DNA of 33,450 nucleotides from Pseudomonadota bacterium (GTDB lineage Bacteria > Pseudomonadota > Gammaproteobacteria > Steroidobacterales > Steroidobacteraceae): positions 1-33,450 of the forward strand of contig JAKAYU010000013.1 in the NCBI GenBank assembly GCA_021809525.1. The letters are read 5' to 3'. The translations under genes and the position numbers were made by a program. A model generated the notes under the pieces. It was not told where the DNA came from and did no database searches. It was given only the letters and a program-made list of their open reading frames with translations. This document shows, piece by piece, positions 22,499 through 27,684 of the stretch; the stretch's first letter is position 1, and the number at the start of each line of letters is the position of its first letter.

Positions 22499-22526
22499 TT
22501 GAAAAACGGCGTCGCCTACCTATTAT
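22499..22526 (+). promoter_or_regulatory. Promoter of groES-groEL (sigma70-like, possibly also sigma32)
   Basis: TTGAAA (22499-22504) and TATTAT (22521-22526) are separated by 16 bases, each matching the sigma70 consensus at five of six positions. The same stretch partly resembles a sigma32 promoter: G-TTGAAA, then an ACCTATTA block about 13 bases later against CCCCATNT. The expected transcript starts near 22533, inside the CIRCE element, leaving a leader of about 75 bases. The boxes are seen directly; dual sigma use is inference. Confidence 0.65.
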
Positions 22527-22552
22527 TAGCAGCCACGCGGGTAGAGTGCTAA
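22526..22552. promoter_or_regulatory. CIRCE operator (HrcA binding site)
   Basis: TTAGCAGCC (22526-22534), a 9-base spacer and GAGTGCTAA (22544-22552) match the CIRCE consensus TTAGCACTC-N9-GAGTGCTAA at 7 of 9 and 9 of 9 positions, with exact spacing. It begins at the last base of the -10 box, so HrcA bound here would block the promoter. This predicts heat-shock control of groESL by HrcA. The hrcA gene is not in the window. Confidence 0.85.
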
Positions 22553-22606: not shown

Positions 22607-24554
<1,948 letters not shown>

Positions 24555-24559
24555 GGACC

Positions 24560-24650
24560 CCTCTAAAGAGGTATCGATTCCAGCGGAGGGAATCGCTAAG
24601 ATGACAACATCGGTTAGGGATTGTGCCCGACCCCAAAGCGGGGACAATCC
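24560..24650 (+). other. Three consecutive stem-loops in the groEL 3' region
   Basis: Between the groEL stop and its terminator lie three inverted repeats. First is CCTC-TAAA-GAGG (24560-24571). Second is CGATTCC-N7-GGAATCG (24575-24595). Third is GGATTGT...ACAATCC (24618-24650), enclosing a second stem CCCC-AAAGC-GGGG with a six-base one-sided bulge. None has a T-tract. They could protect the groESL mRNA from 3' exonucleases or belong to a 3'UTR-derived small RNA. Base-pairing is seen by eye; function is inference. Confidence 0.45.
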
Positions 24651-24693
24651 TGAAAGACGCGGATCAAGACCCCCCTATTCCGCGCAATCCTCT

Positions 24694-24723
24694 AAGCCCC
24701 GCAACTCGCGGGGCTTTTTTTTT
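24694..24723 (+). terminator. Rho-independent terminator of groES-groEL
   Basis: A perfect 7-bp GC-rich stem, GCCCCGC-AACTC-GCGGGGC (24696-24714), is followed by nine T residues (24715-24723). Two upstream A residues extend the pairing into the T-run. It lies 140 bases after the groEL stop and isolates groESL from glnE. This is the clearest intrinsic terminator in the window. Confidence 0.92.
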
Positions 24724-24828
24724 GGTTCTTCACCCAATTCCGGGGGCGCGGCCGGTGTTGTCTGTATCCAACGATCCCAGGTTGCCGTGGCCTGCAATCC
24801 GGATCGGTTTGCGGCAGTATGATGTCGC

Positions 24829-27684
24829 ATGAGCGCCGAGCTTGACGCGTGCGTACAACGGTCGCTGGAGGCCCTGGAGGCGGCTGCGCCGGGTCTGCGT
24901 GCGGCGCTGATGCCGCAGGTAGCGCAGAGCCTGCCGCGCGTGTTCGCGGCGAGCGACTTCGTGGCCGAGGCGTGCGCCCGCGATGCCCAACTGCTCCCCG
25001 ATCTGCTCACGCGCTTCGGGCTCGAGCGGCCGCTCGAGCCGCTCGAGCCGGCGCGCCGCGCGCCGCCGCCGGCGGACAGCGAGCCGCAGATGCTGACGGC
25101 GCTGCGCCGCTGGCGCCGCCGTGAGCTGGTGCGTATCGCCTGGCGCGCCCTTGCCGGCTGGGCCGACATCGAGGAGAGCCTGCGGGAGTCCTCCGAGTTC
25201 GCCGAGGCGGCGATCGCGGTCTGCCTCGAGTACGCGCGGCGAGAGCTCACCACGCGGTTCGGCGAGCCGCGCGGCCCGGACGGCGAGGTGCAGTCGCTGG
25301 TGGTGCTCGCCATGGGCAAGCTCGGCGGCCGGGAGCTGAACTTCTCTTCCGACGTCGATCTGGTGCTGCTTTTTCCCGAGCACGGCGAGACCGACGGCGC
25401 CCGAGCGATCAGCAACGAGGAGTTCTTCACGCGGCTCGCTCAGGGAATGATCCGACTGTTGGAGTCCCCGACGCACGAGGGCATCGTGCTGCGGGTGGAT
25501 ATGCGCCTGCGGCCGTTCGGCGACAGCGGGCCGTTGGTGACGAGCTTCGCGGCGCTGGAGGATTATCTGCCGCTGCACGGCCGCGACTGGGAACGCTACG
25601 CGTATGTCAAGGCGCGGCCGCTCATCGGCGAGGAGCGCTTCGCCGAGCTGAGGGCCGCATCGCTGCGGCCGTTCGTCTACCGCCGTTATCTCGATTACGG
25701 CGTGTTCGAAAGTCTGCGCGATATGAAGGCGCTCATCGAGCGGGAGGTGGCGCGCCGTGAGCTCGCCGATGACGTCAAGCTCGGCCCAGGCGGCATCCGC
25801 GAGATCGAGTTCATCGCCCAGACCTTCCAGCTCATCCGCGGCGGACGCGATCCGCAGCTGCAGACGCCCTCGCTGCTCGCGGCGCTGGCACTGCTTGGGA
25901 CGGGCCGGATCCTGCCCGAGGCGCAGGTTGCGGAACTGACCGACGCCTACCGGTATCTGCGCCGCGTGGAGAACGCCCTGCAGATGCTCACCGACGCGCA
26001 GACCCATCAGCTGCCCCAGGAGGCCCTTGCCCGCGAGCGCATCGCCGTGGCGCTCGGCGAGCCCGACTGGACGGCGCTACAGCGCACGCTGCAGCGGCAC
26101 CGGCAGCACGTCGCCCGGCACTTCCGCCGGCTGCTATTCGGCGGCAGGGAAACCCCCCGCCGCGGCGTGAAGCTCGACCTTGGCCGGGCCTGGGACGATG
26201 CGGCCGAAACCGCCTCGCTCACCGAGTCGCTCGCCGAAGCGGGCTTTGCCGCCCCCGGCGAGGCGGCCCAGAGGCTGCTCGAGCTGCGTGCCTCGACGCT
26301 GGTGCGCAAGCTCGATGAAGCCGGCCGGCATCGTCTGCAGGTGCTGCTCGGGCCTCTGCTCGCGGACGTTGCCGCGGGCAGTGCGGGCGCGCAGGAGCAG
26401 CTGACGGTGCTGCGGCGGATCCTGTCGATCCTCGAGGCGATGGGCAAGCGTTCGGCCTACTTCGCGCTGCTCAGCGAGAGTCCCGCAGTGCGCGTGCGGC
26501 TGGTGGAGATCTGCCGGCGGGGCGAGTTCCTCGCGCGGCAGATCGCTGCCTACCCGCTGCTGCTCGATGAGTTCATCGACGAGAGCGCCTTCGAGGCGCT
26601 GCCGGGGCGCGAGGCGCTCGAGCGTGAGCTCGATGCCGCCCTGGAGCGGGCCGAGCAGGACGATCCGGAGCGCCAGGTCGAGGCGCTGTGCCACTTTCAG
26701 CGCGCGGCGCTGTTCCGGGTGGCGGTCGCGGACCTCTCCGGCCGGCTGCCCGTGATGCGCGTCAGCGACCGGCTGACCGAGCTCGCCGAGATCATCCTGG
26801 ATCGGGCCATCGAGCTCGGCTGGCGGCAGATCACCGCGCAGTTCGGTGTGCCGTGCTGCGGCGAGGAGCGCCGGCCGGTGCACGTCTGCGCCATCGGTTA
26901 CGGCAAGCTCGGCGGCATGGAGCTCGGCTACGGCTCGGATCTGGATCTGGTGTTCGTGCACGACTCGCGCGGCGAGCGGCAGGAGACCGTCGGCGCGCAC
27001 CCCATCGACAACCAGGTGTTCTTCGTGCGCCTCGTGCAGCGCGTGGTCCACCTGCTCACCATGCACTCGGCGGCCGGCCGGCTGTACGAGATCGACGTGC
27101 GGCTGCGGCCGAGCGGCAAGGGTGGGCTGCTGGTGACGCAGATCGATGCCTTCGCCGAGTATCAGCGGCACGAGGCGTGGACCTGGGAGCATCAAGCGCT
27201 GCTGCATGCGCGCGCCGTGGCCGGCTCACGCGAGCTGTGCGGGGAGTTCGAGCGCATCCGGCTCGAGGTACTGCGCTTCAGCGTACGCCGCGAGCAGCTG
27301 CGCGAGGATGTGCGCGCGATGCGCGAGCGGATGCGCCGCGAGCGCTCCCGCAGCGAGCCGCTCTGGATGGATTTGAAGAACGATGCAGGCGGAATCGCCG
27401 ATATCGAGTTCCTCGCCCAGTACTGGGCGCTGAGGTGGGCCCGCGAATACCCGCCGGTGGCACTCTACGCCGATACCATCCGGCAGCTCGAGTCGGTGGC
27501 CTCGGCGAACCTGGTGCCCCAGGAGACCGTCGACCGTCTGACCGCGGCGTACCGGGCCTACCGGACCTGCCGGCATCATCTGGCGCTCGCGGGCTCCCGC
27601 GAGGAGCGGGTCCCGGCCGCGCAGTTCGCCGCCGAGCGTGCCGCAGTGAGCGCCATCTGGACAGACACATTCGGTGGTCGGTAG
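24829..27684 (+). CDS. glnE: Bifunctional glutamine synthetase adenylyltransferase / adenylyl-removing enzyme
   Basis: Controls glutamine synthetase by attaching or removing AMP in response to PII protein and glutamine. It is 951 aa (E. coli 946). Two nucleotidyltransferase domains are visible. The N-terminal deadenylylase has VLAMGKLGGRELNFSSDVDLVLLF (about 158-181). The C-terminal adenylyltransferase has GYGKLGGMELGYGSDLDLVFVHD (about 689-711). The N-terminal domain is followed by RPLIGEERFAELRAASLRPFVYRRYLDYGVFESLRDMKALIE and GPGGIREIEFIAQTFQLIRGGRDPQLQTPSLLAAL. The C-terminal domain is followed by DLKNDAGGIADIEFLAQYWALRWA. ATG 24829 has no clear Shine-Dalgarno sequence. A TATGAT hexamer lies only 5 bases upstream, hinting at a very short leader. 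It is a stand-alone gene after the groEL terminator. Confidence 0.96.
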   Translation: MSAELDACVQRSLEALEAAAPGLRAALMPQVAQSLPRVFAASDFVAEACARDAQLLPDLLTRFGLERPLEPLEPARRAPPPADSEPQMLTALRRWRRRELVRIAWRALAGWADIEESLRESSEFAEAAIAVCLEYARRELTTRFGEPRGPDGEVQSLVVLAMGKLGGRELNFSSDVDLVLLFPEHGETDGARAISNEEFFTRLAQGMIRLLESPTHEGIVLRVDMRLRPFGDSGPLVTSFAALEDYLPLHGRDWERYAYVKARPLIGEERFAELRAASLRPFVYRRYLDYGVFESLRDMKALIEREVARRELADDVKLGPGGIREIEFIAQTFQLIRGGRDPQLQTPSLLAALALLGTGRILPEAQVAELTDAYRYLRRVENALQMLTDAQTHQLPQEALARERIAVALGEPDWTALQRTLQRHRQHVARHFRRLLFGGRETPRRGVKLDLGRAWDDAAETASLTESLAEAGFAAPGEAAQRLLELRASTLVRKLDEAGRHRLQVLLGPLLADVAAGSAGAQEQLTVLRRILSILEAMGKRSAYFALLSESPAVRVRLVEICRRGEFLARQIAAYPLLLDEFIDESAFEALPGREALERELDAALERAEQDDPERQVEALCHFQRAALFRVAVADLSGRLPVMRVSDRLTELAEIILDRAIELGWRQITAQFGVPCCGEERRPVHVCAIGYGKLGGMELGYGSDLDLVFVHDSRGERQETVGAHPIDNQVFFVRLVQRVVHLLTMHSAAGRLYEIDVRLRPSGKGGLLVTQIDAFAEYQRHEAWTWEHQALLHARAVAGSRELCGEFERIRLEVLRFSVRREQLREDVRAMRERMRRERSRSEPLWMDLKNDAGGIADIEFLAQYWALRWAREYPPVALYADTIRQLESVASANLVPQETVDRLTAAYRAYRTCRHHLALAGSREERVPAAQFAAERAAVSAIWTDTFGGR

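Follow-up and report, generated by a model that had tools for sequence, protein, structure and literature searches.

Does the strongly folded stretch that follows groEL in this member of the Steroidobacteraceae belong to the chaperonin messenger, or is it a gene in its own right? The window analysed here is a stretch of 33,450 nucleotides (contig JAKAYU010000013.1 of assembly GCA_021809525.1), in which groEL and glnE lie on the same strand with three inverted repeats and a terminator between them. The initial annotation had read this layout as a possible small RNA (sRNA) released from the groEL mRNA. The repeats it listed are all present, at 24560-24571 (CCTCTAAAGAGG), at about 24575-24595 (CGATTCC..GGAATCG) and at 24617-24650, as is the strong U-rich terminator, whose stem-loop occupies 24694-24716 with a run of nine Ts at 24715-24723, the first two of them within the stem. 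Judging from its sequence, the folded stretch is very probably a real regulatory sRNA that had not been listed before, and the evidence presented below points to an independent gene rather than to a fragment of the groEL mRNA (Table 1).

Table 1. Features of the groESL-glnE region, in window coordinates.
Feature	Position	Strand	Evidence or remark
CIRCE element of the groESL promoter	22526..22552	+	2 mismatches to TTAGCACTC-N9-GAGTGCTAA, 0 expected
groEL, upstream neighbour	22917..24554	+	Cpn60, Pfam PF00118, E 2.6e-81
Nearly invariant block AAAGAGGTATCGATTC, probably an activator site or the -35 region	24565..24580	+	46 genus relatives
Probable -10 box TAAGAT (TAnnnT)	24597..24602	+	fixed offset from the block
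Small RNA	24609..24722	+	z -4.24; covariation on 50 relatives; covariance model R1 122.5 bits
Hairpin 1	24617..24650	+	widely changing stem sequence, pairing kept
Hairpin 2, CGCGGA stem, loop with GACCCCCC (24668-24675)	24658..24684	+	almost unchanged within the genus
Hairpin 3, intrinsic terminator with U-run, common to the sRNA and the groESL mRNA	24694..24723	+	helix 6
glnE, downstream neighbour	24829..27684	+	Pfam PF03710; synteny

Folding of the entire region gave -69.5 kcal/mol compared with -52.8 kcal/mol for shuffled sequence (z -3.84), with 1 of 200 shuffles folding equally well. For 24609-24722 alone none of 200 shuffles was as good, and the z-score was still -2.64 after removal of the terminator (24609-24692), whereas the first 54 nt (24555-24608), which hold the first two repeats, were unremarkable (z -0.63; 55/200 shuffles equally good). 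The excess of folding stability is thus located wholly in the 3′ part, so that the earlier claim of more structure than expected stands for the region and for its 3′ portion and fails for the first 54 nt; it also missed a fourth hairpin, listed as hairpin 2 in Table 1. The resulting RNA would be about 114 nt long with three hairpins, presumably starting about 7 nt past the -10 box and ending in the U-run of the terminator.

When 99 related genomes were searched at the DNA level, the region was seen adjoining groEL throughout the genus. Sequences following the groEL stop codon were extracted from 46 genomes belonging to the genus and one belonging to a sister genus, and all 47 contained one RNA-like block. 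Within the genus alignments the sequence of hairpin 1 varies freely with retention of pairing, and the same holds for the terminator, while the segment AAAGACGCGGAnCAAGACCCCC(C)UAUUCCGCGC hardly varies. Hairpin 2 (CGCGGA-UCAAGACCCCCCUAU-UCCGCG) is the best conserved of all elements, and its loop, AAGACCCCC(C)UAU, is nearly invariant. No other single-stranded part of the RNA is under strong constraint; this C-rich loop is proposed as the targeting loop. A second C-rich motif, GACCCCAAAG, occupies the loop of hairpin 1 (24629-24638) in the subclade of the window.

Covariation was assessed by aligning 50 sequences, drawn from about nine genera, to the covariance model R1. Standard pairs filled 91.3% of cells, and two-sided changes were found in 23 of 26 pairs (177 cells); all 500 shuffles fell short on each of the five measures, and structures slid along the alignment were only 44.8-51.5% paired. 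Helices 1 and 3 (hairpin 1) showed two-sided changes in all eight pairs, helix 6 (hairpin 3) was 94.9% paired with such changes in 7 of 8, and helix 4 (hairpin 2) was paired in 99.4% of cells with six of its seven pairs altered on both sides and the C-run retained in other genera. Because the model structure was used in fitting the alignment, these figures lean towards that structure; hairpin 2 needs no fitting, its stem changing from CGCGGA/UCCGCG to CGUGGA/UCCACG across genera while the C-run in the loop stays. The compensatory changes that the initial annotation had named as a check are therefore present in relatives, and together with the U-rich terminator they lend its proposal of a small RNA strong support.

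The core-hairpin pattern occurs in 46 stretches among 84,980 species genomes, and all but one of these belong to metagenome-assembled genomes (MAGs) labelled Proteobacteria, Gammaproteobacteria or Steroidobacteraceae. The exception (L082, positions 131-155) sits on a contig of 4 kb from a MAG that bears the label Bacillota and is probably a binning error. R1 located the RNA in 90 of 217 family genomes at E <=0.01, including 49 of the 58 genomes of the window's genus; in one of the nine without a match (L028) the element is cut by a contig end, and in the others the groEL end was not well matched. After inspection, convincing copies were distributed over about nine genera (g1, g2, g26, g27, g33, g34, g35, g44 and g45), mostly with scores of 37-127 bits, three weaker ones (L207, L188 and L219, 23-29 bits) being accepted on inspection. 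Judging by the record labels, the family that carries the RNA is the Steroidobacteraceae. Spread beyond this family was examined with R1 on the order and with a second model, R2, on 369 genomes of the class, and was rejected; many matches of up to about 35 bits were returned, and those inspected were plain GCCCCGC terminators, so the model E-values are unreliable below about 37 bits.

Two side observations concern the same loci. At L188, L061 and L219, other groEL copies of the same genus have diverged hairpins at their ends, again with a C5-C6 loop. In two species, group II introns (RF02001, 83-94 bits) lie just past the sRNA terminator (L005 1250-1422, minus strand; L009 1903-2074, plus strand), a position compatible with insertion after an intrinsic terminator.

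No Rfam 15 family matched the window at gathering score, and the best sub-threshold matches of a relaxed-threshold scan of the element lay far below the cut-offs. With its conserved structure, compensatory changes and terminator, this RNA family is an undescribed one of a known kind, namely that of intrinsically terminated bacterial sRNA genes.

The origin of the transcript is addressed by the sequence ahead of it. The upstream block, 16 nt long and nearly invariant in 46 genus members, is followed by a variable spacer with a fixed length of 16 nt, after which TAnnnT stands at the exact offset in 43 members, the other three having it shifted one base downstream; it was seen at no other offset tested in this set. 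Such constant spacing over variable sequence argues for a promoter. The -35 hexamer of the window genus matches TTGACA poorly, so this promoter would need an activator or another sigma factor. A regulon sharing the block (AAAGAGGTATCGATT) was considered and rejected, as the genome holds one exact copy and the remaining matches carry three mismatches (14 versus 5 for the reversed control). The second inverted repeat was likewise rejected as an RNA hairpin: 75% of its cells are paired, for the most part by bases that do not vary, two-sided changes are few, and the surrounding region does not exceed shuffled sequence in stability. The repeat overlaps the probable promoter, and a role as DNA sequence accounts for it better. 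A dyad at 24570-24581 / 24589-24598 (GTATCGA...TCGATAC in many relatives), with half-sites about 22 bp apart, also overlaps the probable promoter and could be an operator for some regulator.

Promoter-like sequences of other types precede the RNA in other genera. All 13 copies in g34 follow TTTACA-N16-TAnnnT, and the stand-alone copies of g27 follow a sigma-E-like GGAACTT-N16-(G/C)TCT in 6 of 6 cases, GGAACTT being the -35 motif of the sigma-E promoters of rybB and micA (PMC1804206); a sigma-E promoter (GGAACTT / GTCAAA-type) is absent at the window's copy. The distance from the -10 box to the start of hairpin 1 in g27 and g34 is similar to that in the window genus. These stand-alone copies of g27 are second copies of the RNA, about 700 bp downstream of groEL, at L169, L170, L171, L216, L217 and L287.

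Gene order is consistent with this independence. The arrangement groES-groEL-RNA-glnE is shared by the window, g27, g35 and g44; g34 and g45 include copies that precede glnE without any groEL having been detected in the vicinity, and for g26 and further g34 copies neither groEL nor glnE was seen within the 6-kb stretches taken. The copies in g26, g34 and g45 show that the RNA can occur independently of groEL, and synteny places glnE beside the sRNA even in genera whose groEL is non-adjacent. Taken together, the TAnnnT motif held at fixed spacing in 46/46 relatives and the groEL-less relatives behind promoters of their own favour an independent primary sRNA gene, with its own promoter and a C-rich loop that would pair with G-rich mRNA sites, a reading that we consider likely.

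The strongest competitor is a type II 3′UTR-derived sRNA, which would lack a promoter, be released by RNase from the groESL mRNA and accumulate in heat shock. No terminator lies between groEL and the hairpins, so the groESL mRNA must contain them, and since groESL has a CIRCE element, heat-shock read-through into the sRNA terminator is plausible. (This element precedes groES and overlaps a sigma-70-like promoter, TTGAAA/TATTAT.) The groEL-adjacent copies of g27 moreover begin no more than about 20 nt after the stop codon; no promoter motif was matched at them, and because there is no room for a downstream promoter there, a processed 3′UTR form may exist in that genus. As the origin of the RNA in general, however, release from groESL is unlikely in view of the invariant block, the fixed spacing and the groEL-less homologues; the initial annotation was thus right about an sRNA and probably wrong about its main release from the groEL mRNA.

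Two further explanations assign the hairpins to a neighbouring gene. As the element is groEL's terminator, it might merely protect and terminate that mRNA, yet such a role is very improbable for an invariant loop hairpin of about 30 nt that has spread to groEL-less loci, and the C-loop hairpin is missing from those groEL ends that were seen in other families of the order. Alternatively, the hairpins and terminator could act in cis as a leader or attenuator governing read-through into glnE, which is the next gene in several genera, some of them without adjacent groEL. The chance of this appears slighter still: no glnE was detected within the 6-kb stretches at g26, L173 and L175, the copies at L177 and L171 lie more than 1 kb upstream of it, a strong terminator is present at every copy, and a simple attenuator has no need of an invariant C-rich loop. 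Finally, the ATG-started frame open at 24601-24822 (73 aa) was rejected as a short coding gene, its likelihood being practically nil, since many relatives lack the ATG at 24601 (e.g. ATCTCAAC in L006), both the linkers and hairpin 1 differ between relatives, also in length, and changes follow base pairing.

Among described RNAs, the independent sRNA gene favoured here most resembles sX13 of Xanthomonas (RF02232), another gammaproteobacterial RNA of about 115 nt with a short unstructured 5′ end, three stable hairpins and C-rich loops. The three stems of sX13 carry 4C/5C loops, and it acts, independently of Hfq, as a repressor of mRNAs that bear G-rich motifs close to the start codon (PMC3771888); an action on G-rich translation start regions is proposed here by analogy. 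The two RNAs agree only in part in their loops: all three sX13 stems have a C-rich apical loop, whereas here C5-C6 occurs in loop 2, with C4 in loop 1 in the window's subclade and a terminator loop that is not C-rich. Their surroundings differ as well, sX13 adjoining polA (PMC3771888) and the present RNA lying between groEL and glnE. RF02232 scores 16.1 bits on the element (gathering cut-off 50), and homology with sX13 was rejected, as in the 99 relatives the model matched elsewhere only, below cut-off, with no match at these loci. One such sub-threshold match (33.2 bits; L190, G010:C16:101168-101275) is possibly another C-rich-loop RNA.

RepG of Helicobacter pylori, one of several other sRNAs with C-rich loops, similarly acts through a C/U-rich loop on G-repeats (PMC8295292), and pairing with G-runs in mRNA leaders is predicted for the present RNA; RepG uses its terminator loop for this purpose, whereas the loop of hairpin 2 is proposed here, and the sequence comparison was made at the level of Rfam. 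MicA and RybB (PMC1804206) share the sigma-E-type promoter with the stand-alone g27 copies only and differ in RNA structure. CpxQ, MicX and MalH (reviewed in PMC9438474) are located, as here, at the 3′ end of an mRNA whose terminator they have in common, and MicX has its own promoter, as seemingly does the present RNA, which, in contrast to these three, has copies in other genera that are separate from the parental gene. That review of 3′UTR-derived sRNAs does not mention groEL, and no paper on an sRNA downstream of groEL was found in the literature searched.

These features suggest a mechanism in which RNA polymerase would start at about 24609 from the sRNA's own promoter and finish at the terminator, yielding an RNA with a short 5′ tail, a hairpin of variable sequence, the invariant C5-C6-loop hairpin and the terminator. 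The C-rich loop AGACCCCCCU would most likely pair with G-rich AGGGGGUCU at or near the ribosome-binding sites of other mRNAs, and this pairing would lower their translation in the manner of sX13. As groESL transcripts would run into the same terminator, heat shock may also raise the level of the RNA. A bolder proposal is that of a family-wide stress sRNA joining cytoplasmic chaperonin and envelope stress, in which an ancestral groESL-linked copy gave rise in one genus to a duplicate under a sigma-E-type promoter, the invariant C5 loop lowering outer-membrane receptor mRNAs; in our judgement this is distinctly improbable.

Candidate targets were sought through G-rich motifs near ATG codons, which are expected anyway, and matches to AGGGGGTCT-N2-11-ATG in the genus were only modestly above the reversed-pattern control. 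Few genes recurred with a AGGGGGUCU-like site just before the ATG in the 58 genus genomes, and among the loci examined one orthologous pair alone did so (L276 and L284, 69.6% identical). These two genes carry AGGGGGUCU at the ribosome-binding site. They have signal-peptide-like starts and, at the start codon, the loop-complementary AGGGGGTCTCAATG, which makes them possible targets; by eye only, we take their products to be TonB-receptor-like. A further candidate (L222) is presumably rplA, also recognised by eye. Both the pair and rplA are a lead, not a result.

For the study of apparent 3′UTR-derived sRNAs, this locus is a caution that such an RNA may be a separate gene. It adds an undescribed RNA family, apparently limited to one family of mostly uncultured bacteria, in which an sRNA gene keeps its loop while the type of promoter and the neighbours change, from a -10 box of its own beside groEL to sigma-70-like and sigma-E-like promoters. 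It also provides a further gammaproteobacterial example of the C-rich-loop design of sX13, and raises the question of whether this design arose more than once.
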